Source of the DNA: Daphnia pulex
Lineage: Eukaryota > Arthropoda > Branchiopoda > Diplostraca > Daphniidae
DNA: 64,000 bases
Reading direction: 5' to 3'
Assembly: GCF_021134715.1 (NCBI RefSeq)
Contig: NC_060027.1
Coordinates: 3,906,001 to 3,970,000 of the forward strand
Every line of letters starts with the position of its first letter. Position 1 is the stretch's first letter. Positions 32,458 to 64,000 of the stretch are shown here, in pieces. Below the pieces are notes generated by a model that was given only the letters and a program-made list of their open reading frames with translations, was not told the DNA's origin and searched no databases. The position numbers were made by a program, and so were the translations under genes.

Positions 32458-34582
32458 ATGAAGACGGAAGAAGCGGATCAGACTCCACCTCACGACAGTG
32501 GCGATCATTTGAAAATTTCTGTGGCCGAAAAAACTAATCCTCCGATCCTTTCAACTTTCACTGCCGAGTCCGATTCAGGTGCAATCAAGCAAGATGCGGC
32601 GGCCGAAGAACCAGCCAGTCAGATGACTCGAGGGAAAATGATCAACACTCTCATCATCTGTCTTCTCCAACTTTTGAATTTTATGGATCGATATGCCTTA
32701 CCCGGTAAAATCCCAAAAAAACAAGCAAATGTCTGATTTTATAGTGTCAAATTAAACTTTGGTTTTTGATTAAGGAATATTACCCGTCATTATCGACGAA
32801 TTGGATCTGAGCAACTTACAAGGCGGTTTGCTTCAATCGGCCTTTATCGTCAGCTACGTCGTGGTGGCTCCGCTTGTCGGCTACTTGGGCGATCGTTTTT
32901 CTAGAAAGTAAGTCGACATTTTAAAAGCCCGAAAATAATTAGCGTTCACTCTACTTTAAATCTCCCGTTTCTCCTCATAAGAATTATCCTGATTGTGGGA
33001 CTCACTGTTTGGAGTTTGGTGTCGCTGGCCGGTTCTTACATGACCACTTATTCATCTTTATTGGCTCTGCGCTGCCTGGGAGGTACATAACAATCTGTCA
33101 ATGTGCAAATTTCAACTGGCTTCAATAATTTCATTTTCCGGTTTACTAAAATTAAGGGATTGGCGAAGCGACTTATTCGGCCATTGGGCCGGCAATGATC
33201 GCTGACATGTTTGTCGGTGACACGCGCTCTAACATGCTAGCCATGTTTTACTTTATGATGCTCGTTGGCGGGTAAAAATAACTGTTTGAAATTTCACTTG
33301 GAACATTTTCGCACTAACACAAAATTCGATTGTTTTTAGAGGATTAGGTTACATCACCGGATCGGGAGTAGCAGCCGCCACTGGATCGTGGAACTGGGGG
33401 CTCCGGGTCACTCCGATTCTCTCGTTGATTTCCGTCTTTCTCATCATCGTCTTCTTGAAAGAACCGGCCCGAGGTGAGAGCGAAGGCTCTCGTCTAGTCA
33501 GCACCTCATGGAAGAAAGACATCATTTATCTTTTACACAAGTATGACATCATTTACATCCAATTTAAGATTGCGAAAAATGTAATGAAGATGATTCATAT
33601 TCTTATAGCCGGAGTTTTATGTTTTCGACGACCGCCTCTGTCGCCTTGGTGTTCGTCATTGGGGCCGTCGGCGTTTGGGGCCCGCAGTTCGTCGTTCTCA
33701 GTCGCAAAGTCGTTTTGGACGAGACCCACACTTTTGAAGAGTAAAAATTCAATCACCCTTATCGTCCGTCTCAGAATTTCAAATACTTTTTTACTTTGAT
33801 CAGAATTTCTTTAGTGTACGGAGTTATTAGCATCGTTTCCGGTATAACAGCTGTTATAGTCGGAGCAATCATGGGCATGAAACTTCGTTCTAAATACCCT
33901 TCAGCTGGTCAGTTCTCTTTTATTAGACACTTGATTGACGTTTTAATTTGTTATAATTTTTAAATTTTGTTTTATTAGACGCTCTCATCTGCGGCATCGG
34001 TATGTTACTATCGGCTCCGTTTTTCTACGGATTCCTAGTTGCCGGAACCGGACCTCTCTACTGGATCTACATCCTCTCATTTATCGCCCTTTGGTTCATC
34101 AATTTGAATTGGGCGCTCGTTGGAGATATTCTTCTGGTAATGAATGACTTCTATCATTTCTTTGCTTAAAATCAAAATCATTTGATGTCACTTTTAGTAC
34201 GTGGTTGTGCCCACAAGACGGGCGACAGCGGAAACGTTCCAAATCATGTCCGTTCACGTTTTCGGTGATGCCAGCAGTCCGTTCATCATTGGATTGGTGT
34301 GTTTTTCATTTCACCAAAGCAAAATTAAATTGAAATGAAATAAACTCATTCCTACTTTGCTATAAATTGTAGATTTCCGACGCATTCGAGCCGCTCATCA
34401 ATTCGGATTCGGAAGACTACCGCAAATACACGTCACTCCAGTACGCCTTGCTCATCAATCCGTTCATCCAGATATTGAGCGCCGCCCTCTTTATGGCCGG
34501 ATCCTTTTACCTTCTCAGCGACCGAGACAAAGCCAAACGTGCAGTTGCGGATGGAATTGCACGCGAAAATGCCTCAAATTAA
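32458..34582 (+). CDS. Spinster-like MFS transporter, array gene 2
   Basis: Closest relative of gene 1, same family role. Ten exons: 32458-32704, 32775-32907, 32982-33082, 33157-33271, 33340-33540, 33609-33740, 33804-33907, 33979-34136, 34198-34296 and 34373-34582, 499 residues. Intron positions and phases match gene 1 exactly up to the final exon, where gene 2 ends directly (IARENASN) and lacks the extra tail exon. Motifs: [95 protein letters not shown] and [12 protein letters not shown]. The protein is MFS-sized with about 12 predicted helices. Confidence 0.93.
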
Positions 34583-35046
34583 AATTCCACCCAAACGACT
34601 TGTTTGTTGTTTGCCAGTTTTTTTAAGCTCATCACTGTGACTGACGTAAAGAGTATTATATATACATTTTACCCTTAATGTGTTAGTGTCACTTTGCGAT
34701 ACGTTTATCAGTGATCCAACCACGCCTCTCTAATCCCATCAACCGATCTAAAAAAAAGGAGGACGTTATGGTCCGTTTGTTTGTCTGTCTGAGCCAGTGA
34801 TCTATGTCCTTACATGTTATTGTCCAAATCGAATAAAAAGAAAACGAGGTTTTTACTTTTGGTTTCCCCTCTCAGCCGGTGGATTTTTCTTGGTTTGCGC
34901 AACTGATATAGTGAACTTGCTAAGCTTTTATTTTTGGGGTTATTATGATTATCAGTCAACGTTGCACCTTTATAATCGTATCCTTTTGTTTTGAATCGGT
35001 CCCTTAGTCTTTTGACAGATATTTTCAGTGTCCGTAGTGCTTGAGG
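34583..35046. other. Intergenic spacer between spinster genes 2 and 3
   Basis: Probably the 3'UTR of gene 2 followed by a short promoter region for gene 3. No further signal was recognised. Confidence 0.5.
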
Positions 35047-37928
35047 ATGGATGCCGGAATAGACCACCAGCTAGCGGAAACATCTTCCGGCGGATCCGAG
35101 AAAGTTGAAAATGTCCAGGGATTTGAAAATGGTCGAATACAAGTCGAAAGTAAGAAACAATCGCGTTTGAAAGTGGCTACCGTGTGCATCCTCTGCTTTT
35201 TCAATCTCACCTACTATATGGATCGGTTTGGTATCGCTGGTAAGTGCGTATTAGATTTTTAATTACAATTTTGATTGGGATTTCATCGGGTGTGTCTTGA
35301 ATGTAATTTAGGCATTTTGCCGTCAATCCAGTGCGACCTGGGGGCAAGTGACAAACAGGGTGGTTTACTTCAAACCGCTTTCATTGTACCTTACGTCATT
35401 TTTTCGCCTGTGGTCGGTTACCTAGGCGACCGAAACTCTCGAAAGTTTGTATTTTTGAATTGTTGTGCTCTTGGAAATGATTCAAACGGCCTAATTTATC
35501 CGTGTGATTTCCTCTGCACAGGTTGATTTTAGTGGCAGGGATATTTTTCTGGTCCTGCGCCACACTGACTGCCAGTTTCATGCCCAATTTGTGGTCATTC
35601 ATTCTCCTTAGATCACTCACGGGAGTCGGCGAAGCTTGTTTCAGTTGTACGTTGAATTATACGTTACACTAATATTTAATTTGACTATTTGTTTAATGTT
35701 TAAATTGTCTTCAACATTAATTTGTGATAGCTTTGGCGCCGGCAATCATTAGTGATCTCTACGCCAGTAACGTTCGCTCCAAATTTCTAGCTATTTATTA
35801 CTTCGCTATTCCGGTCGGAAGGTAATCATTTCGGCTGAATATATCAAATAAAATTTATCTGTTTTCAATTTTTCGTTGCACGCGTGGATTCAAATTCTGT
35901 ATCCTGAATGGAACCACATATTTTTATCTGCTATCTCAAAAGTGTGTTGACTAAGATTTAGATTAGAAAGGGATCTGAAACAAATTCTTTATCTGTCTGG
36001 TCGTCGGTTAAAATAACCCCAAGATCACACGAGTCTGGGCGTTTTATTTTGTCCTTTTTCTGTTTGTTTTGTAAACAAACAATGCACAGTCCAAACAAGC
36101 CTGGCTGAACCTCAACTGTCAATAATCTGTCCAGTTATTTATTTACTCGACCACAGAAATCCCCAGTTAACTCCTTTTCGTTCCGTTATTGATTTAATTG
36201 TTTTCTTTTTGTTTTGTTTTATAATTTATGCAGCGGATTGGGTTACATTGTTTTTGCTGAGGTCGGAAACGCGACCAACGACTGGAGGTAAAATTATAAT
36301 GAATATGAGTTTTCTTACGAATTATAATGTTTTTTCTCGTAGATGGGGACTTCGGGTGACGCCCATTTTCGGATTCATCTGCGTCGTTTTAATCCTGCTG
36401 TTTCTACAAGATCCGCCGCGCGGAGAAAGTGAGGGTAGCCGGATGAAAACCACGTCTTGGATGGACGATATCAAATATTTCGCCACACAGTAATAATACC
36501 TTTGATTTTAAATTATCCGGATATTTCAATCGTTATTAATCGTTTGGCTATGGTTTATTCAGTGGAAGTTACATCTGGATCAGCGTTGCTTCGGTATACA
36601 ATTTTTCATTTCAATTGAATTTTTGAATTCAATCATTTTTTTAAATTGTATTACGTAAAGACAGCTGTAGCTTTTATTGCTGGAGCGTTCGGCGCATGGG
36701 GTCCCAAATACATCACGCTGGGACTGATCACGCAACAGGAAGGGCAAACAGAAGATATTGGTGACCTCCTCGGCAGGTAATATTCCACCAGCCAAAATAT
36801 GCCTAACGAGCCATTCAATTAACGCAATTTGTTGGTTTAAAAAAGAGTCTCGCTGATTTTCGGATTTATCACGGTAGTAACCGGTTTGATGGGCGTGGTC
36901 GTGGGTTCATTGATGGGAACAAAGTTGCGCGGCAAATACCCGGTAAACACATATTTTTATTACATTCATTTTGACCTAGATTTGACCATGAATTTTATTG
37001 TGTTTTTCAGACGATCGATCCTGAAATTTGTGGGTTTGGAGTATTGGCCAGCGTACCGCTCATTTTTGCAATGACGGTACTGGCCAGCGGTCCCGAAGGG
37101 CCCACTTACATCACCTTCTTCTTCGGCCAGTGGTTTCTGAACTTAAATTGGGCCCTTGCCACCGACATGTTGATGGTATTTGAAATTAATGAATAAATTT
37201 CATTAAGAGTAATTATTTAATCTTAACAATAATTACGCCATTTTCTATAGTACACTATCGTTCCTACGAGAAGATCATCCGCTAAAGCTATCCAGATCCT
37301 CTTAAATCACGTTCTGGGCGATGCCGGAAGCCCTTACATCATCGGATTGGTTTGTCATTACGCCTTATTAAAATCCTCTCTCAAACGACCAATTAAAAAT
37401 GCAATAAAATACTTTGATCAATTGTGTAGCTGTCAGATGCGTTTAAACCTCTCGTGGAATCAGGCCACAGCAGCACAAAGACTCATAATGCCACCACCAT
37501 TTCGTCATCTTTGTGGGATAGCCCAGTCGCAAGAGAACAAGATTGCGATTTGTCGCCCATCGACGTCACTACCGCAGAACGAGATTTTACGGCATTGCAG
37601 TACGCTCTGTTTATCGCCTTATTCATCCAGGTAGTACATATAAAAGATCACATTCAGCTGATGTCTAGAAAATATAAGATGCGGTATAATAGCAAGAGAC
37701 TCTGTCGTTATATAGGTACTGGGTGCTTTTGCTTTTATTGCCACTTCCTGGACGATCATTGATGACAAAGCGGAAGTGGACCGAGTGGCTGCCCTATCCC
37801 AACGAAAAGACAGGAACTCTGATCAGCTTGATTCGATCGTCGATTTGTCTAGCGAAAAATTTCCAGTATCGATTTCTACCATCACAACTAGTGAACAGAC
37901 AGGACCGATATCTACTAATGTCTCTTAA
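35047..37928 (+). CDS. Spinster-like MFS transporter, array gene 3
   Basis: Member of the second subgroup (with gene 4). Thirteen exons: 35047-35239, 35312-35444, 35522-35646, 35731-35821, 36234-36287, 36343-36489, 36563-36593, 36661-36776, 36846-36942, 37011-37175, 37251-37349, 37430-37630 and 37716-37928, 554 residues in phase. Motifs: TYYMDRFGIAGILP, GYLGDRNSRK, RSLTGVGEACFSSLAPAIISD, QDPPRGESEGSRMKTTSW, AWGPKYITLG, WFLNLNWALATDMLM, VPTRRSSAKAIQI and [11 protein letters not shown]. It differs from genes 1 and 2 by extra introns (36288-36342 before WGLRVTP, and 36594-36660), a 412 bp intron, and a long Ser/Thr-rich loop of about 45 residues before the last helix pair (near SGHSSTKTHNATTISSS). 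The C-tail is Ser/Thr-rich. Confidence 0.9.
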
Positions 37929-38746
37929 ATGTTATATCATTGATCGATGCCCGAGAAATATTCAAATAATATATATTTTAGACCAGTTATTGATCGTGTT
38001 AATTAAATTTCATTAAACGTATTGAACCACTGTTTGGTCTATTAACAGCGAGCCTTCGTCAATCAAAATTGGGGAATTAAATGTGTCCACTTTCTTAACA
38101 CAGTTTACATAAAGATAAGATAAGTTTCCGTGTTCATTGTTAAACTCCACAGGACCCAGTGTACAGTGGACACTATAGTGTCCATTATTTTATAAGTTCG
38201 TTTTTGTGAGTTGGTTCTCAACAATAATTGTCTAAAACATACTGTGAATTTCTAATGGAATTCAACGAATTTGGCATCACAGAAAAATCCATCAAGCGTC
38301 GATCAAAATGTTAACATGACAATCCAGGCTTAAGTCTAGATGTGGTGCGGTAATTCTATATGGAGGAAATTGACATCGCTGTCGGACGACGTAAATGATA
38401 CTTTATTATTTTTTTCCTTGTGACATTTGTTCAAAGATTGCTCACAAAAAGGATTGTGATGGTCATTTTATGGATACATATCAGAAATTCTTTAGGTACA
38501 TTTAGTTTTCTTTACGTATCGTGTATTATATTTGAAGATAAAATATGTAATCTAAATTTTTAGGCCCCACCCTCCGTAGGTATACACTGTCACTGCAGAT
38601 ACAAATGCAAGTGTATACACGTTTCGGGGTTAGTTGATTCCCGTCAGCTGGAAGTAGACAAGCTGAAACGCCATTGTATAGTTTTCTCTCCATTTTTCTT
38701 CCGCCGAATTGAATCAGTAGAGTAAAAACAAAAGTAAATTTCTACG
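37929..38746. other. Intergenic spacer between spinster genes 3 and 4
   Basis: AT-rich with no gene. It contains a small imperfect repeat of cagtgtacagtggacactatagtgtcc near 38158-38184. Confidence 0.45.
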
Positions 38747-41522
38747 ATGGATTCGCCAGACATTGACAGCAACGAAACCGTCCAACATCAGTCGACTATC
38801 GAACAGGTTGTCACCGAAGATGTCCAGCCGCAACTACAACCGTCTGGAAACCCAAACGATTCGATAAAAGCGCCAGAAATTGTTCCCGATAAAACATCAA
38901 ACGAGCCAGCGCTATCCTCGAGAACTTCTTCTGACGCAGGTGACCAAACTCAACCCTTGCCGACCCATGAAGAAACCGTCGACCATGAACCAAAGGTTGA
39001 TCTAGAGAAAGACAAACTGTCTGTTTCCACCGAAGACTTGACTGTATCGCTTCCTACCAAAGACAAGCCGGAAGACCAGATCAGCTGTGAGCCATCATCA
39101 TCGTCGTCGATCACTTCGTCGTCGATCACAACTGTGGAAGAAGTCAAGCAAATGTCTAGACGCCAACTCGCCACCGTCCTAATCCTGTGTTTTGTCAATC
39201 TTTTGAAGTACATGGATCGGTTCACTATCGCAGGTACGGCGGTGTGTAAATGACACCCCACATTTATCTCGTCTTATTATAGTCACATCGGTTATTTACT
39301 GACGCATAATCCCATCGTCTCGATTTGCAATCGATTTTTTAACTATTTTATATAAAAACCAACCATGGTGGATATCAGGGATCCTGCCGGAGATCCAGTG
39401 CTTTTTTGGAATCAGCGATGCGCAAGGTGGATTACTGTCGACGGCTTTCGTGGTGTCCTACATGCTCTTCTCACCTCTTGTCGGATACCTGGGCGATAGA
39501 TTCTCTCGCAGGTATTACCAAATTTGTTTGATGCAACAATTTTCTAACATATCTTATATTTATTCTTTCATTTCTTAACAGGATCATCATGGGATGTGGA
39601 ATCATTTTCTGGGGTCTTTCCAATTTAGGTAGGTTCGTTATTTAGATTTATTTTTATTCCTTTTTATTTATTTTTTATTCCTTATTTTTATTTATTTTTA
39701 TTTAGCCGGTTCGTTCACGGAAACTTACAGCCTCTTTCTGACGTCGAGGATTCTAGTTGGCATCGGCGAGTCCATGTTTTCCACCGTTTCGCCGACTATC
39801 ATTTCCGACGTGTGCGTCGGTGACACTCGGTCGAAATTCCTCATCCTTTATTATTTCGCCATTCCGGTTGGAAGGTAAAGTCTATTATTATTTATTTTTT
39901 ATTTGACAGTTGCGTAATGGCTGTCATATAAACGTGTATTAATAAATAAGCGATGAATTCTAAAGCGGTCTAGGATTTATTGTTGGTGCGGCGATGGCCA
40001 GCGCTTTCGGTTCCTGGCAGTGGGGCCTCCGTGTCACACCTTTCTTAGGCCTTATCGCCGTCCTGTTGATCTTCTTTATCGTCCAAGAGCCACCGAGAGG
40101 TGAAGCCGAAGGATCTACTTTATCCCCGACGACTTACTGGGACGATCTTAAATATCTGGCCAAAAAGTAAGATTATAAATTTTTTAACAAAAGAACAAAC
40201 AAATTAATCAGAAGATAATTATTAATTAGTAAAAGTTACGTATTGTCAACCGCGGGCTGCACGCTCACCACCTATGTCTCGGGAGCGCTGGCCTGGTGGG
40301 GTCCGAAATTCATTACATTGGGACAAGCCTCCGGACAAGGATTAGACGTGTCTTATACCAGGTAATTTATACCTTTCAATTAAGAAAAATCATCTGTCCT
40401 GTTTTTATCATTTCAAATCTATTTGGTAAAGGGTGTCTTTAGTCGTCGGCTTCGAAGCAGCTTTAGCCGGCGTGGTGGGCGTTGCTTCCGGATCTTTGGT
40501 CGGACAGAAATTCAGGAAACGTTTTCCAACTGCCGACGCCCAAGTTTGCGCTTGGAGTATGGTCATTTGCGCCCCGCTACTCTATTGGGGATGCTATATA
40601 GCGACCGGCCCTCCGGTACCCTTATACATCGTCCTCTTCTTTGGTCAATGGTTCCTCAACGTTAGCTGGTTCGATATTATTTTTGAATTATTTCCTAATG
40701 TCTCTTTTATTCAGATTTTTTAAAATTTGAATTTAGGGCTCCCGTTGGTGACATCCTCTTGGTATAGTTTGAATCATCGTTATAGTTTTATCAGCGAATG
40801 ATTAATTCAATTATTTTCTTTTTCCTATTTTACTGAGTAGTATGTCGTCATTCCTACGAGACGTTCGACGGCCGAAGCTTTTTCTATCCTCATTTCCCAT
40901 GCATTAGGTGATGCCGGATCTCCGTATATAGTTGGGCTGGTAAAATACAAATTATTTAGAATGAAAAAAAGAAAGAGTTGTAAAAATGTTTCTAAATATT
41001 CTTCCTTCCAGGTATCAGACAGCTTTAAAAAGTCGTTGACTGCTGCGGCTGAATCGAAAACTTATTTATCGAATGATTACTACGACGGGACGATGGTCTT
41101 GGATCAATCCTCTTCAAGTAATAATTGTTCCGGTTCATCGTTCATCGATCCGGAAACGGTCGACATTGATTTTCGGGCTCTACAATACTCGTTGTTCATC
41201 ACGACAATCATCGCAGCCCTGAGCGCCTATTTTTTCTTCCTGAACGCTTGGTATTAGATTTTCACGCAACTATTTATCAAAATATTGATCTTGTTTCAGA
41301 ATTGGTTGTTTTCCTATTTCAGGTACATCGTCGAAGACAAAGCCGCTGTCGCAAAAGCTGTGAAGGGTAAAACAAGAATGTTTAATTTACGAATTTTTAA
41401 ATTTGATCTACTAAACTTTTATTTTGATTACTATACTCCCAGAAAACGAAGAATTGATGCGAATAGAAAAAATTGAAAAGCAAGATTCGGCTAACACTAA
41501 ATCGGAATTGTCGGGAGTGTGA
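38747..41522 (+). CDS. Spinster-like MFS transporter, array gene 4, long N-terminus
   Basis: Same family. Twelve exons: 38747-39233, 39379-39511, 39582-39628, 39706-39874, 39966-40166, 40230-40361, 40432-40668, 40737-40761, 40841-40939, 41012-41250, 41323-41366 and 41443-41522, 630 residues. The first 140 residues are an acidic, Ser/Thr/Pro-rich, probably disordered cytoplasmic tail with a Ser run ([13 protein letters not shown]). TM1 follows with [13 protein letters not shown], then [90 protein letters not shown] and [12 protein letters not shown] Ser/Asn-rich extra loop before the last helices ([16 protein letters not shown]) parallels gene 3. One intron present in genes 1-3 is lost inside exon 7 and one is gained at 40669-40736. 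Intron retention at 41251 would add a TAG at once. Confidence 0.9.
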
Positions 41523-43512: not shown

Positions 43513-45418
<1,906 letters not shown>

Positions 45419-50165: not shown

Positions 50166-51006
50166 TCAGTGACTAGTAACTATTAAGATGTGACCGACAA
50201 ATCTGAACATAGTTATTATAATTGAAAATTCGACTGTAGTATTTAGGAGCGTCCCTGTAGTAAGTTGGAGAATCGTAGGGTGTGGTGTAATGTTCAGGTG
50301 CCTTAGTGGTGTAGTACTTAGGGGTCTCGGTGTAGTAGCTAGGTGTAGCGTAGGTTGTGGTGTAGTAAACTGGAGCCTCGGTGTAGTATTCCGGTTCAAC
50401 GTAGTACGAAGGAGCAGCCGCTGTGTAGTTAGTCGGGACTGCGTAATACTTGGCCGTCTCAGTTGTAGTTGTGTAGCTTGGGGCAGAGTAATACTTCGGG
50501 GCTTCGGTGTAGTGGCTTGGGGAAGCACAAGTTGTGGTGTAATACTCTGGAGCCATGGTGGTGTACTAAGTTGGAGCCGCGGTGTAGTACTCCGGTGACT
50601 TGGTGGTGTAGTACTCCGGTGACTTGGTGGTGTAGTACTCAGGATCTTTGGTGATTTAGCTCGGGGCAGCATTAGCTGCGGTGTAATACTCTGCAGCCTT
50701 GGTGGTGTAGTAACCGGTTGGTGCGAATGTTGTCGTTGTATAGTAAAGGCGGCGTTTTGTGAAGGCGGCGGCGTGGTGCTTTGGTATCCGCCATACCCAG
50801 GAGACATCAGTACACTAGTGATCGACCCAGCCTTCAACGACACGACAAACGGCAACAAAACGAGAACTATAATCAACTAGGCGGTAAGATTTGAACATTA
50901 ATATTCAATATGGTACATTAACAGATAAAAAACAAATAATTGATACAAACTCCATGAAACAGAATATTTACCCAATTGCGTACTGATAATCCGACGAAGA
51001 ATGCAC
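50166..51006 (-). pseudogene. Tyr/Thr/Pro-rich secreted repeat protein, decayed copy A
   Basis: On the minus strand a frame from about 50750 to 50173 encodes repeats of the type EYYTEAPKYYTT and KAPEYYTT, as in secreted structural proteins of crustaceans. It is broken. The signal-peptide-like segment (LIIVLVLLPFVVSLKAGS, near 50820-50876) is in a different frame from the repeats. Two in-frame stops interrupt the repeats before the long open part starting at MAPEYYTTTCAS. The first exon (near 50972-51006) has lost its ATG where copies B and C have one. Its 5'UTR is interrupted by a broken AIF segment. An extra intron cannot be fully excluded, but the combination of lesions favours a pseudogene. 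Confidence 0.65.
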
Positions 51007-52225: not shown

Positions 52226-52803
52226 GGGTGTCGGAGAAGCTCACTCGACTGATTTCTATCGTACTTGGACGCTCCTGTGTAGTATTCGACAGCTTTGGTG
52301 GTGTATGTAATAAGCTGAAGCCTCGGTGTCGTAGGTTGGGTCAGCATACGTAGTTGCGTAGTCTCAGGTGCCTTGGTGGTGTAGTACTTAGGAGCCTCGG
52401 TGTAGTTCTCTAGCACTTTGGTAGTGTAAATCGGGGAGCAGCACAAGTTTTGGTGTAATAATCTTCATCCTTGGTGATTTAACTGTAAACCATATTGCGC
52501 AACCCCGGTGTAGTAACTGGTCGTTGCGTATGTTGTTGTGTAGTTTGGCGGCGGCGTTGCGGTTTGGTATCCACAGGGGCATCGGTACACCAGCCGTCCA
52601 CCCAGCCATCGACGAAACAACCAACAGCTGCACGACGCCAAAGTTGAATGGACAATGTTCAACAATAACGGACATATTATCAAACAGAAAAAAAATATTT
52701 GATACAAAGTTCCACATTAAAATACAAATATTTACCCATGATTGCGACCTGGTAATACGACGAAGAATGCAGTTGTTGTCGTGTCGGAGGTGCTCACTCG
52801 ATT
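52226..52803 (-). pseudogene. Tyr/Thr/Pro-rich secreted repeat protein, decayed copy B, and 5'UTR of copy A
   Basis: From 52803 downwards: a 5'UTR (GTCGGAGG block), ATG at 52737-52739 followed by a donor, then a second exon with hydrophobic frames. The frame GYQTATPPPNYTTTYATTSYYTG joins only partly to a signal-like segment and stops after about 80 codons. Repeats of the type NYTEAPKYYTTKAPE reappear in another frame near 52330-52440. Several frame breaks make an intact product unlikely. At about 52228-52252 the 5'UTR block of copy A lies directly upstream of the AIF segment. Confidence 0.6.
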
Positions 52804-53135: not shown

Positions 53136-53541
53136 GCCTTGCGGCTATTTTACCTTCTTGATAATGATGCAAAACGTCCCGTTCTCACCCAACCTCTTAG
53201 CACTGCATGACACCTTTTACGTAATGATCTCCATGACCTTCGATTGAAATGCAAACTGGCCTTTCCTTCTGCAGGTGACGTTGAAAGGGGATGGGTCTAC
53301 AATAGCCAATATCAAAATGAATACCAAATAGCTTACCCTTACGGCTATTGCACCTGCTTGATTATGTTGAAACACGTGTCATTCTCACCCAACCTCTACA
53401 CCACCCCATGCCAGTTTTAGGTAATTTTCTCCGCGACCTTCGAGTCTGAAGGCCATAGAAACTGGCCTTTTTCTTTCTGCAGGTTGACATTGCTGGGGAT
53501 AGGTCTACAAAAACCAATATCAAAATGAATATCAAAAGCTT
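53136..53541. repeat. Two tandem ~200 bp units
   Basis: Words ACGGCTATT, CATTCTCACCCAACCTCT, CGACCTTCGA, AACTGGCCTTT, TTCTGCAGGT, GGTCTACAA and CCAATATCAAAATGAATA recur in order with a spacing of about 200 bp. Likely upstream DNA of the Tyr-rich gene duplicated with the array. Confidence 0.8.
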
Positions 53542-54366
53542 AAACTTTACTTACTTTATACCAATTTTAAATTTGAGTCATTGGACTCGTTTCTTCGGTG
53601 GATGTCCATCTTCTTCCATAATCTTCCATTTCGAACCGTTTGAAGGACAGTTGGCTTTTATGAAAATATTCCTCTGCAACCTTATCTAAGTTTCTAACAC
53701 ATGATCAATCCATATTCATGATGTGCACACAGTTGAGCCTTGTTAGAAATGTGTTGTGTTGGACACCAATGAAGAAGAGATTTCACCTGGCTGTTGAACC
53801 TAATATTTTACAAACTGAAATTACTATTAGGGAACAGCTAGATTAATAATGTTGAACACATTGACAGGAGTAAAGTTGAATTAAGCAGTCCCTCAAAACT
53901 ATTTTGATAAAGAAATTTTACAAAGAATAAATCTACAGTAAACAAGATTTTCGATGTTCGATGTCAGCGCTAAGTCTATGTCGTAGAGATGCTGACGAGA
54001 TGCTGGCCTTCTGATGTTCACAGTCGGTAGGCCGTATTCTCTCGGTCATTAACTTACTAGCAAATTGAAGAAGAAGAAAAAAATGAATAACAGAATTGCA
54101 TTCACTTGCATGCCAAGTGTAGTCACCTTGATAATACCAAGGAGGCTTCCTAAGCAATCCAGAAAATGAAATGAGTCAAGTGCGATGGAGACTAGATTAC
54201 TCCAGCACCCAGCAGCTTCTCTATGACAGAACATACATATTATTTAGTAAGTTATTTTAGACTTTCCTTAAATTTTTCAACATAAAAATTCATAAGACTA
54301 ACAGATGGGGTTATGGGTTACGGGGGTTATGAAAAAATAAAATTATTAGACTTCTAACCAACATTG
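53542..54366. other. Intergenic DNA
   Basis: No gene recognised. Confidence 0.4.
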
Positions 54367-58234: not shown

Positions 58235-59640
58235 CTAAATTTCACACATAAATAGTATTACAAAATATAAGATAAGATTTTAAATCGAAAAATAATCTGG
58301 AGTAGGCCTACTCATACGACTAGTACTTACAGTAAGAGAAAAGTCACTACTAGGATTCCATTTTAAAAATAGAAATGTTTTCTACAGAATCAAAGTGCCG
58401 GCTACACAAGACAAATGGATTCCATTGACCCTGCAAGGATGTAAAAAGTGCCAGCACAAAGACGATAAAACACCAAACCATCAATAATCACCTCCACCTC
58501 GTGCCGCACGTCATGCCACACTTTCCAGTAACGTAATTAATACGGACTGAAAGTGATAAATATTTACGGTTTTTCTTGGTGAAGAAAGCATTGTCATTCA
58601 TCGTAAATGGTTATGTTGGGGCGTTCGGCGGTCTTTCCAGTGTCGAAAACGAATATGGCTACTATTGGTGATGTAATTTCGTCAAGCTCCTAAATTGAAA
58701 CTACATGAAATAAAAATAAATACGTAAAATAATTTAAAAAAAAAATTAAAATAAATAAATGCTGGTAAACAAAAAAATGTTAACGATAATCTAGTGATAA
58801 TTGTGTCAAATAAAATTAGTTTCGACTTTCTCTTAGTTCACATTTCGCTCACTTGCCTGACAGCAGCTCCGAAAATCATCCTGGCAGAATCGGACGTTGA
58901 TTTCCACAAGAGTTTTCGAAGGTTGACCAGATCTCGCCTCGTTCTCGGCATTCTCTTTCCCTAGATTCGTTCACACCGATTTATAAATGATAAAACATGA
59001 TGCAATTTTAGGCAAGAGGGCTAACGCCTAGCTTGTAGCCAATACGATTTAGAGCTACTTAAATTTGGCTCGCTTCTCCTCAGTCCGTTACATAATCTTC
59101 CACGATTTTAATTAATATTTAAGCCAAAACATTGATTGGATATGTTCTTTCAGAATGCGGAAGCCCCCGAGACGCAATTCAAACCATAAAAACAAATTTT
59201 TTATTTAAAAAATAAAAGTTTTCCATGGAAAGGGGTTCGACCCAGTTACAAAGGTATCCCTATTATGTTCATGTGTCTAAGAAAGTTTAAACAAAAGAAA
59301 AGAAACCAAAAACAAAGGACTTATTTTAAACACTTTAAAGGATGTTTCGAATTATTTCATTTAGCGTCGACAGACGCATGAAGTACAGACTGTCTGTCTG
59401 TACCTGTCTGTACCTGTCTGTACCTCATGACAGAAGACTGGACGGAACAATTTTACAGCCATCTAGTGTCAAAATTCACAACTATTTTTTTGTGCTGGAA
59501 TTACACCGGAAGCAAATGGACATTAAATTCGCAGAAATCGGAAATAGACAACAGAAATTAAGTAATTTTGTGAATTTCTTGTTTGAAATATAAGTGAAAA
59601 ATTTTTCTGCATTGAAATATGCAAATAATTTCGAAATTGG
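58235..59640. other. Intergenic DNA
   Basis: No supportable gene. It includes a small TGTCTGTACC tandem repeat (about 59391-59425). Confidence 0.4.
59391..59425. repeat. Short tandem repeat, 10 bp unit
   Basis: TGTCTGTACC repeated three to four times. Confidence 0.75.
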
Positions 59641-59659: not shown

Positions 59660-59789
59660 TACGCAAAAACGCCGTAAACTGCATACATGCTAATCAAAGA
59701 TGACAGGGCAGAATCTATAAAGACCCCCGAAAACACCGCATAAGGTACTGTTGAACAAATCAACTAAAACCCAAAACTTCAGCAACAAA

Positions 59790-62700
59790 ATGTTTACTTC
59801 ACTCGCTGTGTTCACTGTTGGAATATTCTTACTTTACGGATGGGCGTTGATTATCGATTTATTACAAAGTGTGTTTTTATCAGACAAAACTACCAAACAT
59901 GTCACACCAAAAGAAACCAAAATCGAAAACGCTAAATCAAAAAAAGAGGAAAATAGTCAACTTTTGGAACAGGCAAACTACGAAATGACTGAACTGAAAG
60001 CGAACTTTGATCTACAAAAATCAATCCTCGATAAAGAAAAATCCGATTTAGTGGATGCGAATAAACTCGCAAAAACAGACGAGGAAAAAATTAGACTTTT
60101 AGTTTTAGAGCAGACTAAAACAAAACTGACGGAACTAAAAGCGAACTTTGATCTACAAAAATCAATCCTCGATGAAGAAAAATCCGCTTTAGTGGATGCG
60201 ATTAACATCGCTAAATCGGAAAAAGAAAAAACTAGCATACTTTTGGATAAAATGCAAACCGAGTTGACGAGCTTAAAAGCGCACTTCAATGATCAAAAAT
60301 CCACTATCGAACTCGAAAAATCTGCATTGACGGATGCAGTCAAAGCTGCTCAAACGGAAACGGAAGACAAGAATCGACTTTTGGAACAGGCAAACACCGA
60401 ATTGATGAACCAGAAAGCGCAATATGATAAGCTAAAATCCAACTTCGATGAAGAAAAATCAGCTTTAGTGGATGAGATTAACCTCGCTAAAACGGAAAAA
60501 GAAAAACAAAGCAAACTTTTGGATGAAACGCAAACTCAGTTGATGAGCTTAAAAGCGCACTTCAATAATCAAAAATCCACTATCGAACTCGAAAAATCTG
60601 CATTGACGGATGCAGTCAAAGCTGCTCAAACGGAAACGGAAGACAAGAATCGACTTTTGGAACAGGCAAACACCGAATTGATGAACCAGAAAGCGCAATA
60701 TGATCAGCTAAAATCCAACTTCGATGAAGAAAAAGAAAAACAAAGCAAACTTTTGGATGAAACGCAAACCGAGTTGACGAGCTTAAAAGCGCACTTCAAT
60801 GATCAAAAATCCACTATCGAACTCGAAAAATCTGCATTGACGGATGCAGTCAAAGCTGCTCAAACGGAAACGGAAGACAAGAATCGACTTTTGGAACAGG
60901 CAAACACCGAATTGATGAACCAGAAAGCGCAATATGATAAGCTAAAATCCAACTTCGATGAAGAAAAATCAGCTTTAGTGGATGAGATTAACCTCGCTAA
61001 AACGGAAAAAGAAAAACAAAGCAAACTTTTGGATGAAACGCAAACTCAGTTGATGAGCTTAAAAGCGCACTTCAATAATCAAAAATCCACTATCGAACTC
61101 GAAAAATCTGCATTGACGGATGCAGTCAAAGCTGCTCAAACGGAAACGGAAGACAAGAATCGACTTTTGGAACAGGCAAACACCGAATTGATGAACCAGA
61201 AAGCGCAATATGATCAGCTAAAATCCAACTTCGATGAAGAAAAAGAAAAACAAAGCAAACTTTTGGATGAAACGCAAACCGAGTTGACGAGCTTAAAAGC
61301 GCACTTCAATAATCAAAAATCCACTATCGAACTCGAAAAATCTGCATTGACGGATGCAGTTAAAGCTGCTCAAACGGAAACGGAAGACAAGAATCGACTT
61401 TTGGAACAGGCAAACACCGAATTGATGAACCAGAAAGCGCAATATGATCAGCTAAAATCCAACTTCGATGAAGAAAAAGAAAAACAAAGCAAACTTTTGG
61501 ATGAAACGCAAACCGAGTTGACGAGCTTAAAAGCGCACTTCAATGATCAAAAATCCACTATCGAACTCGAAAAATCTGCATTGACGGATGCAGTCAAAGC
61601 TGCTCAAACGGAAACGGAAGACAAGAATCGACTTTTGGAACAGGCAAACACCGAATTGATGAACCAGAAAGCGCAATATGATAAGCTAAAATCCAACTTC
61701 GATGAAGAAAAATCAGCTTTAGTGGATGAGATTAACCTCGCTAAAACGGAAAAAGAAAAACAAAGCAAACTTTTGGATGAAACGCAAACTCAGTTGATGA
61801 GCTTAAAAGCGCACTTCAATAATCAAAAATCCACTATCGAACTCGAAAAATCTGCATTGACGGATGCAGTCAAAGCTGCTCAAACGGAAACGGAAGACAA
61901 GAATCGACTTTTGGAACAGGCAAACACCGAATTGATGAACCAGAAAGCGCAATATGATCAGCTAAAATCCAACTTCGATGAAGAAAAAGAAAAACAAAGC
62001 AAACTTTTGGATGAAACGCAAACCGAGTTCACGAGATTTAAAGCGCACTTCAATGATCAAAAATCCACTATCGAACTCGAAAAATCTGCATTGACGGATG
62101 CAGTTAAAGCTGCTCAAACGGAAACGGAAGACAATAATCGACTTTTGGAACAGGCAAACACCGAATTGATGAACCAGAAAGCGCAATATGATCAGCTAAA
62201 ATCCAACTTCGATGAAGAAAAATCAGCTTTAGTGGATGAGATTAACCTCGCTAAAACGGAAAAAGAAAAACAAAGCAAACTTTTGGATGAAACGCAAACT
62301 CAGTTGATGAGCTTAAAAGCGCACTTCAATAATCAAAAATCCACTATCGAACTCGAAAAATCTGCATTGACGGATGCAGTCAAAGCTGCTCAAACGGAAA
62401 CGGAAGACAAGAATCGACTTCTGGAACAGGCAAACACCGAATTGATGAACCAGAAAGCGCAATATGATCAGCTAAAATCCAACTTCGATGAAGAAAAAGA
62501 AAAACAAAGCAAACTTTTGGATGAAACGCAAACCGAGTTGACGAGCTTAAAAGCGCACTTCAATAATCAAAAATCCACTATCGAACTCGAAAAATCTGCA
62601 TTGACGGATGCAGTTAAAGCTGCTCAAACGGAAAGGGAAGACAAGAATCGACTTTTGGAACAGGCAAACACCGAATTGATGAACCAGAAAGCGCAATATG

Positions 62701-64000
62701 ATCAGCTAAAATCCAACTTCGATGAAGAAAAATCAGCTTTAGTGGATGAGATTAACCTCGCTAAAACGGAAAAAGAAAAACAAAGCAAACTTTTGGATGA
62801 AACGCAAACTCAGTTGATGAGCTTAAAAGCGCACTTCAATAATCAAAAATCCACTATCGAACTCGAAAAATCTGCATTGACGGATGCAGTCAAAGCTGCT
62901 CAAACGGAAACGGAAGACAAGAATCGACTTTTGGAACAGGCAAACACCGAATTGATGAACCAGAAAGCGCAATATGATCAGCTAAAATCCAACTTCGATG
63001 AAGAAAAAGAAAAACAAAGCAAACTTTTGGATGAAACGCAAACCGAGTTGACGAGCTTAAAAGCGCACTTCAATAATCAAAAATCCACTATCGAACTCGA
63101 AAAATCTGCATTGACGGATGCAGTTAAAGCTGCTCAAACGGAAAGGGAAGACAAGAATCGACTTTTGGAACAGGCAAACACCGAATTGATGAACCAGAAA
63201 GCGCAATATGATCAGCTAAAATCCAACTTCGATGAAGAAAAATCAGCTTTAGTGGATGAGATTAACCTCGCTAAAACGGAAAAAGAAAAACAAAGCAAAC
63301 TTTTGGATGAAACGCAAACTCAGTTGATGAGCTTAAAAGCGCACTTCAATAATCAAAAATCCACTATCGAACTCGAAAAATCTGCATTGACGGATGCAGT
63401 CAAAGCTGCTCAAACGGAAACGGAAGACAAGAATCGACTTTTGGAACAGGCAAACACCGAATTGATGAACCAGAAAGCGCAATATGATCAGCTAAAATCC
63501 AACTTCGATGAAGAAAAAGAAAAACAAAGCAAACTTTTGGATGAAACGCAAACCGAGTTCACGAGATTTAAAGCGCACTTCAATAATCAAAAATCCACTA
63601 TCGAACTCGAAAAGACTGCATTGGCGGATGCAGTTAAAGCTGCTCAAACGGAAACGGAAGACAAGAATCGACTTTTGGAACAGGCAAACACCGAATTGAT
63701 GAACCAGAAAGCGCAATATGATCAGCTAAAATCCAACTTCGATGAAGAAAAAGAAAAACAAAGCAAACTTTTGGATGAAACGCAAACCGAGTTCACGAGA
63801 TTTAAAGCGCACTTCAATAATCAAAAATCCACTATCGAACTCGAAAAGACTGCATTGGCGGATGCAGTTAAAGCTGCTCAAACGGAAAGGGAAGACAAGA
63901 ATCGACTTTTGGAACAGGCAAACACCGAATTGATGAACCAGAAAGCGCAATATGATCAGCTAAAATCCAACTTCGATGAAGAAAAATCAGCTTTAGTGGA
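59790..64000 (+). CDS. Membrane-anchored giant coiled-coil repeat protein (cut by window end)
   Basis: A single uninterrupted frame of at least 1,403 codons with no stop before the window edge. Residues about 5-28 (LAVFTVGIFLLYGWALIIDLL) form a membrane helix or signal anchor. The rest is almost pure coiled coil rich in Lys, Glu, Leu, Ala and Gln. Two related ~46-residue modules alternate. Module A is LLDETQTQLMSLKAHFNNQ... and module B is LLEQANTELMNQKAQYDQL.... Together they give a 92-residue long unit (276 bp). A short unit of 78 residues (234 bp) lacks 14 residues (SALVDEINLAKTEK), exactly two heptads. Unit starts, by the word GCAAACTTTT, occur at 60511, 60745, 61021, 61255, 61489, 61765, 61999, 62275, 62509, 62785, 63019, 63295, 63529 and 63763. 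The 5' units are divergent, the later ones nearly identical. Family not recognised. A structural or tethering role is inferred only. Confidence 0.85.
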   Translation, partial: MFTSLAVFTVGIFLLYGWALIIDLLQSVFLSDKTTKHVTPKETKIENAKSKKEENSQLLEQANYEMTELKANFDLQKSILDKEKSDLVDANKLAKTDEEKIRLLVLEQTKTKLTELKANFDLQKSILDEEKSALVDAINIAKSEKEKTSILLDKMQTELTSLKAHFNDQKSTIELEKSALTDAVKAAQTETEDKNRLLEQANTELMNQKAQYDKLKSNFDEEKSALVDEINLAKTEKEKQSKLLDETQTQLMSLKAHFNNQKSTIELEKSALTDAVKAAQTETEDKNRLLEQANTELMNQKAQYDQLKSNFDEEKEKQSKLLDETQTELTSLKAHFNDQKSTIELEKSALTDAVKAAQTETEDKNRLLEQANTELMNQKAQYDKLKSNFDEEKSALVDEINLAKTEKEKQSKLLDETQTQLMSLKAHFNNQKSTIELEKSALTDAVKAAQTETEDKNRLLEQANTELMNQKAQYDQLKSNFDEEKEKQSKLLDETQTELTSLKAHFNNQKSTIELEKSALTDAVKAAQTETEDKNRLLEQANTELMNQKAQYDQLKSNFDEEKEKQSKLLDETQTELTSLKAHFNDQKSTIELEKSALTDAVKAAQTETEDKNRLLEQANTELMNQKAQYDKLKSNFDEEKSALVDEINLAKTEKEKQSKLLDETQTQLMSLKAHFNNQKSTIELEKSALTDAVKAAQTETEDKNRLLEQANTELMNQKAQYDQLKSNFDEEKEKQSKLLDETQTEFTRFKAHFNDQKSTIELEKSALTDAVKAAQTETEDNNRLLEQANTELMNQKAQYDQLKSNFDEEKSALVDEINLAKTEKEKQSKLLDETQTQLMSLKAHFNNQKSTIELEKSALTDAVKAAQTETEDKNRLLEQANTELMNQKAQYDQLKSNFDEEKEKQSKLLDETQTELTSLKAHFNNQKSTIELEKSALTDAVKAAQTEREDKNRLLEQANTELMNQKAQYDQLKSNFDEEKSALVDEINLAKTEKEKQSKLLDETQTQLMSLKAHFNNQKSTIELEKSALTDAVKAAQTETEDKNRLLEQANTELMNQKAQYDQLKSNFDEEKEKQSKLLDETQTELTSLKAHFNNQKSTIELEKSALTDAVKAAQTEREDKNRLLEQANTELMNQKAQYDQLKSNFDEEKSALVDEINLAKTEKEKQSKLLDETQTQLMSLKAHFNNQKSTIELEKSALTDAVKAAQTETEDKNRLLEQANTELMNQKAQYDQLKSNFDEEKEKQSKLLDETQTEFTRFKAHFNNQKSTIELEKTALADAVKAAQTETEDKNRLLEQANTELMNQKAQYDQLKSNFDEEKEKQSKLLDETQTEFTRFKAHFNNQKSTIELEKTALADAVKAAQTEREDKNRLLEQANTELMNQKAQYDQLKSNFDEEKSALV
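60511..64000 (+). repeat. Near-identical tandem coding repeats, 234 and 276 bp
   Basis: Spacings between successive unit markers are 234, 276, 234, 234, 276, 234, 276, 234, 276, 234, 276, 234 and 234 bp. Variants such as GAGTTCACGAGATTTAAA (at about 62027, 63556 and 63790) are shared by non-adjacent units, as expected from unequal exchange or gene conversion. The array runs out of the window. Confidence 0.95.

Follow-up and report, generated by a model that had tools for sequence, protein, structure and literature searches.

The last 4.2 kb of a 64,000-nucleotide stretch of Daphnia pulex DNA (NCBI RefSeq assembly GCF_021134715.1, contig NC_060027.1, positions 3,906,001 to 3,970,000; referred to as the window and numbered from its first letter) raise the question of what kind of protein could be encoded by a reading frame that runs unbroken into the end of the sequence and is largely made of near-identical repeats. 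It is very probably a real gene, and the answer that we favour, for which we judge the chances to be about even, is a lineage-specific gene of a crustacean, most likely Daphnia, whose product would be a membrane-anchored cytosolic coiled-coil tether or spacer. The argument refers to the following features, given with coordinates and strand:

59790..63998, + strand: open reading frame of 1,403 codons, 3'-incomplete, the array still running at the window end
59716..59721, + strand: TATAAA, candidate TATA box (motif match), 74 bases 5' of the ATG
59799..59855, + strand: N-terminal hydrophobic segment (amino acids 4-22), candidate signal anchor (Kyte-Doolittle; AlphaFold2 helix 6-25)
59865..59942, + strand: lysine-rich linker (amino acids 26-51), non-helical in the model and read as disordered from its confidence values
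59997..60137, + strand: divergent module P1, 47 residues
60138..60275, + strand: divergent module P2, 46 residues
60276..63998, + strand: homogenised array of 14 complete units, six long (L, 276 bp) and eight short (S, 234 bp), with a last unit truncated where the window ends
60276..60551, + strand: first L unit, module A (46 amino acids) and module B (46 amino acids)
60552..60785, + strand: first S unit, module A (46 amino acids) and shortened module B (32 amino acids)
60459..60500, + strand: 42-bp stretch of the L unit that is missing from S, with GAAAAA directly before it and at its end

From the ATG at 59790 the frame contains no stop through 63998 to the window end, as an earlier note on this DNA had claimed, compared with 104, 104, 51, 74 and 57 stops in the five other frames of the same stretch. 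The closest upstream in-frame stop is at 59718, and the ATG is the first methionine codon after it; the surrounding sequence is CAACAAAATG, which has an A at position -3. As promoter evidence the TATAAA at 59716 proves little, since two further copies are close by (59646 and 59652) and 33 occur on the + strand of the window. About 365 bases 5' of the ATG, at 59394-59425, the 10-bp tandem repeat CTGTCTGTAC is present in 3.2 copies. Since any copy of an open unit is itself open, the open frame over 14 copies does not amount to 14 independent facts; the independent part is one L unit together with the 162 amino acids before the array, which have no in-frame stop and 3 to 17 stops in each other frame. 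A tblastn search of bases 1-59700 for a second copy, using the pre-array part and one L+S unit, gave a best match with an E value of only 2.3.

The units of the array are marked by 15 anchors of the form KAHFN[ND]QKSTIELEK, spaced by 92, 78, 92, 78, 78, 92, 78, 92, 78, 92, 78, 92, 78 and 78 residues. The unit lengths in the earlier note, 92 (L) and 78 (S) residues, are therefore borne out by 14 spacings, but the strict alternation of both is not, as the order L S L S S L S L S L S L S S, followed by a partial unit, includes two S-S pairs. Two further statements of that note hold: the 92-residue unit is composed of two 46-residue modules, and the first copies are divergent and the rest near-identical. 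Compared with the first A and the first B module in the array, P1 and P2 show 23, 45, 52 and 56 differences in 138 bases (one P1 codon was omitted for the alignment of P1 to the other modules), as against pairwise differences of 0-4 of 276 bases among the six L copies (15 pairs) and 0-8 of 234 bases among the eight S copies (28 pairs). Over its 1,241 residues the array contains no Cys, Gly or Pro.

Written by exact sequence, the order of the units is L1 S1 L1 S1 S2 L1 S3 L2 S4 L3 S1 L3 S3 S5. L1 and S1 each occur three times and L3 and S3 twice, and because the same exact variants recur at separated places, the sequence supports repeated unequal exchange or conversion as the process that shaped the array, in agreement with the continuing unequal crossover proposed before. 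The 15 A modules are of eight distinct types, and the eight S copies are of five. The 42-bp loss in S, flanked by GAAAAA, is as expected of a deletion between short direct repeats, and S is probably derived from the long form, as P1 and P2, which are located outside the array, have the long form. P2 (60138-60275) is far nearer to module B of the first L unit (60414-60551; 23 differences) than to module A (52); P2 may be the source from which the array arose, or it may have exchanged sequence with the array. In three of the eight S copies (62025-62039, 63555-63569 and 63789-63803) the unit ends with EFTRF in place of ELTSL. This variant consists of three linked third-position changes, each altering a residue, and the three changes move together, as they would in conversion or exchange.

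Modulo 7 the module length of 46 leaves 4 and the unit lengths of 92 and 78 both leave 1, i.e., the units are not whole heptads. The step of 14 residues between L and S corresponds to two heptads and preserves the register, and this part of the earlier description stands; the whole-heptad units that went with it have to be replaced by a period of 3.54 residues and a predicted stutter in each module. Over the array, hydrophobicity is dominated by a period of 3.54, with a power of 96 compared with a 95% shuffle level of 6.7, the power being inflated by repetition, and single units exceed their shuffle levels as well (L, 7.2 vs. 5.6; S, 8.0 vs. 6.0). A period of 3.50 also scores in a single L (5.1) and a single S (6.4) and falls to 0.21 over the array. 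The value of 3.54 equals 46/13, as for 13 turns made up of five heptads and one hendecad.

Core positions were fitted by dynamic programming, with residue weights and a stutter penalty of our own choice in one setting. The fit places 33 stutters and not a single stammer; in the divergent part the gaps between stutters are irregular, at 11, 4 and 18 residues, and the other 29, from residue 127, are all 46 or 32. One L+S unit scores 16.4 compared with 5.2 for shuffled sequences (standard deviation 2.0), none of 2000 shuffles reaching 16.4, and the best strict heptad on this unit scores 3.6 (a rigid pattern, the shuffles having been made for the stutter-allowing fit only). The coiled coil suggested by the earlier note is supported by the fit and by a predicted helix from residue 52 to 331 (see below), and each module is predicted to interrupt the heptads with a single stutter of four residues, at intervals of 46 or 32 residues. 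Stutters are described as a known and tolerated break at which left-handed winding is locally reduced (PMC4786415, accessible part). The cassettes of 46 residues would consist of five heptads and one hendecad, those of 32 residues of three heptads and one hendecad, and each cassette would pass on the register that it received, so that unequal exchange would alter the length of the rod and leave it unbroken. In our model the cassette would thus be register-neutral on exchange, which is to us the most striking feature of the sequence. At 0.1485 nm per residue the calculated length is 184 nm for the visible array and 199 nm from amino acid 60, if it forms one continuous helix, and under this condition the earlier estimate of at least 150 nm was of the right order.

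The N-terminal hydrophobic stretch that had been noticed before is found at amino acids 4-22, with a mean Kyte-Doolittle value of 2.2; windows starting past amino acid 40 reach 0.25 at most. An AlphaFold2 run on the single sequence of 332 amino acids had a mean predicted local distance difference test value (pLDDT) of 79.9. Residues 28-51 have a pLDDT below 50, and the rod is one helix from 52 to 331, with block means of 82-95 across 71-310 and lower values at both ends.

The earlier note had recognised no family, and neither Pfam nor NCBIfam yielded one that we could accept. At E values up to 1, Pfam gave no match for the first 52 amino acids, three for the first 162 and ten for an L+S unit, and all 13 are below the curated cut-offs; NCBIfam gave none for either of the two stretches compared with it. 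Intermediate filament proteins (PF00038; 16.6 bits for one L+S unit, cut-off 40), the crescentin rod (PF19220; 16.4 bits, cut-off 100) and Selenoprotein S (PF06936; 13.6 bits for the first 162 amino acids, cut-off 29.8) were rejected as scoring below their cut-offs. With the whole protein, HALZ (PF02183; 31.5 bits) and the TRAM domain (PF21579; 30.5 bits) exceed their cut-offs of 28.1 and 27 bits, and one L+S unit scores 13.6 and 10.3 bits, respectively. We rejected both, since the scores are sums over many repeats: none of the matched stretches passes by itself, the best of them being 23 residues long. Group 3 late embryogenesis abundant (LEA) proteins have an 11-residue periodicity; the power at 11/3 over the array is 0.04 compared with 96 at 3.54, the Pfam results contain no LEA family, and membership of this group was rejected because of the periodicity. 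Among PDB sequences there was no match at E 0.001, and the two matches among PDB folds (E 6.5 and 7.6) are not convincing. A bacterial, phage or symbiont origin was likewise rejected, as no match was confirmed in the prokaryote, phage and viral collections: the first 332 amino acids gave 23 pattern matches in prokaryote contigs, none confirmed by tblastn, phage records gave no match at E 0.001, and an exact 27-base pattern had no match in viral contigs. These collections cover prokaryotes, phages and viruses; a relative of this protein would not be expected in any of them, and absence from them says nothing on other Daphnia species.

The hydrophobic segment is preceded by no charged side chain and followed by several lysines, which according to the positive-inside rule favours an orientation with the N-terminus outside and the C-terminus in the cytosol, and the rod would be cytosolic. 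If the gene is expressed, the single N-terminal hydrophobic helix would hold the protein in a membrane of the secretory pathway, from which a helical rod of great length would reach into the cytosol, most probably as a parallel and homodimeric coiled coil. As proposed for p180 and kinectin, such a rod might act as a spacer or tether that keeps membranes, ribosomes or the cytoskeleton at a set distance. Kinectin (KTN1) has a long coiled coil that, to our knowledge, is not made of homogenised tandem cassettes. It is described as an integral protein of endoplasmic reticulum sheets, a binding partner of kinesin and, with p180, a proposed cytosolic membrane scaffold (PMC6931119, accessible part). 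In p180 (RRBP1) a single protein combines an N-terminal hydrophobic anchor, a long domain of tandem repeats and a coiled coil, but the repeated unit is a basic decapeptide, present in dog as 54 copies of NQGKKAEGAP, and the repeats precede the coiled coil (PMC12491259, accessible part). In the Daphnia array the repeats themselves would form the coiled coil, with modules of 46 and 32 residues and neither Gly nor Pro. Amino acids 4-22 would correspond to the anchor of p180, as predicted from hydrophobicity and a low-confidence helix, but basic decapeptides of the NQGKKAEGAP type are absent from the 1,241 residues. The best reading by analogy would be a membrane tether that is p180-like in plan and outside the p180 family. 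CLIMP-63 (CKAP4) is comparable in having one membrane segment and an extended coiled coil that by its length determines a membrane distance, but a long cytosolic tail precedes its membrane segment and its rod is luminal (PMC6931119, accessible part). There was no sign of kinship with either CLIMP-63 or p180; the candidate membrane segment begins at amino acids 4-6 here, and there is no cytosolic tail of about 100 residues before it.

For evidence that the frame is maintained as protein, the ratio of nonsynonymous to synonymous differences per site (pN/pS) was compared among four modules (P1, P2, A and B; six pairs) with a stop-free random null. Five pairs fall below the null (pN/pS 0.45-0.49; null fractions 0.012, 0.049, 0.015, 0.023 and 0.002), so that the older module copies appear to be constrained as protein. 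The absence of stops alone is weak evidence, since under random substitution a module would stay stop-free with a chance of 0.12-0.33 per pair.

A number of points weigh against the tether reading. The sixth pair, P2 and B, shows no constraint (pN/pS 1.01, null fraction 0.579), and the six pairs, having modules in common, are not independent of each other. Of 15 variable columns in the young array, 11 change the residue and four are silent by our count, and given about four nonsynonymous sites per synonymous site, there is no clear constraint in this part, which is hard to tell from unconstrained sequence; relaxed selection on fresh repeat copies has been reported as general (PMC5120217, accessible part). 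The 112 divergent residues at amino acids 51-162 have no significant hydrophobic period (4.3 vs. a 95% shuffle level of 6.2), so that the regular hydrophobic pattern is a property of the array, and K and Q occupy 97 of 381 fitted core positions, i.e., the coiled coil is not strongly hydrophobic. The AlphaFold2 model was made without an alignment, has a predicted template modelling score of 0.31 and gives helix 6-25 with low confidence (block means of 50-58). Furthermore, the window stops inside the array and the gene end is located outside of it, and no relative of known function was found in Pfam, NCBIfam, PDB and the prokaryote, phage and viral collections. Finally, G-W-A at amino acids 17-19 would presumably fit the -3,-1 motif of signal cleavage, and cleavage would make the rod secreted.

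Part of this evidence would suit a young or dying repeat gene with little or no function, the array having expanded through slippage and exchange and owing its open frame solely to that of the founding unit. Such a gene would account for recent copies with no detectable constraint, for units that are open automatically as copies of one another, for modules that random substitution would leave stop-free with the chances given above and for the missing homologues in the collections searched. We nevertheless consider it unlikely, as the older modules are constrained in five of six pairs, the 162 amino acids preceding the array are likewise open, and the sole difference in unit length among the 14 units is in frame and keeps the register. 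In addition, a survey found a 276-bp repeat class in D. pulex coding sequence at more than 100 bp per Mbp (PMC3152781, accessible part). With 25,665,454 positions, which we read as the coding total from Table 5 of this survey, this density corresponds to over 2.5 kb of repeats in the class. At exactly 276 bp the L unit, which would be coding as well, has the same length; the coincidence is suggestive, and the class might include this gene. An assembly artefact behind part of the near-identical copies and of the copy number seems very improbable to us: identical units such as the three L1 and three S1 copies are difficult for short-read assembly, but the eight types of A module and five types of S unit noted above are unlike simple copying of one unit, and an artefact would touch the copy number only and not the existence of the gene.

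The side of the membrane is a separate matter. If the N-terminus were a signal peptide that is cleaved off, or an anchor of type II, the rod would be luminal, as a spacer like CLIMP-63, or an extracellular fibre, and we regard this as possible but rather doubtful. The hydrophobic run at amino acids 4-22 is a plausible signal core that contains the G-W-A mentioned above, the composition of the array would not forbid export, and the luminal coiled coil of CLIMP-63 is reported to set sheet width (PMC6931119, accessible part). On the other hand, the charge distribution around the segment points to the cytosol, cleavage at residue 19 would leave the hydrophobic LIIDLLQSVFL as the new N-terminus, and CLIMP-63 has a cytosolic tail of 109 residues (PMC6931119, accessible part) compared with 3 to 5 here. 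We therefore prefer the cytosolic tether.

The plan of an anchor with repeats and a coiled coil is already known; no account of this protein, or of an anchor protein with homogenised, register-neutral cassettes, was found in the open-licence literature searched, and the accessible text of PMC6405927 contains the term coiled-coil only once, inside its reference list. It is also conceivable, but improbable in our estimation, that the gene encodes a molecular ruler, in which unequal exchange of interchangeable register-neutral cassettes would produce length alleles and by this means change membrane spacing at no structural penalty. Long coiled coils are usually regarded as slowly changing, with heptad breaks staying in place. 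Here the heptad break would be located inside the recombining cassette, and the rod could gain or lose 46 or 32 residues per module (about 6.8 or 4.8 nm) or whole units with the register kept. Rod length would then be a heritable and rapidly evolving trait, and Daphnia clones would be a natural series for comparing rod length with membrane spacing, provided that the protein is produced and that its length varies among alleles.

The remaining window has 50 more frames with a length of 100 amino acids or above; 20 of these were compared with Pfam, and five of the 20 match at E 0.01: two protein kinase parts, an RGS domain and a RUN domain exceed the cut-off, and a major facilitator superfamily (MFS) transporter is below it. 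These exon-sized domain pieces point to an animal-like eukaryote. One further repeat region is as follows:

50173-50712 and 52358-52402, - strand: 24-bp repeat region, mucin-like candidate

The 24-bp tandem repeats at 50534-50712 and 52358-52402 are located beside a - strand frame with octapeptides such as YYTTKAPE, which we take to be a mucin-like repeat gene typical of Daphnia; in the survey of D. pulex the 24-bp class is reported to be denser in coding sequence than elsewhere (PMC3152781, accessible part). At 53137-53542 a 200-bp segment is present twice in tandem with 78% matches and no overlapping frame of at least 100 amino acids. Related transporter-like fragments extend over 33290-41257 on the + strand: the frames at 37251 and 40841 have a 12-residue stretch in common, and those at 33290 and 36017 share WGLRVTPI, suggesting tandem paralogues, presumably spinster-like; the sub-threshold MFS match came from the frame at 33290 only. 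On the same strand a protein kinase domain, which we assume to be SRPK-like, is spread over two adjoining frames at 43694-45418 (Pfam Pkinase, E 1.8e-10 and 4.9e-25).

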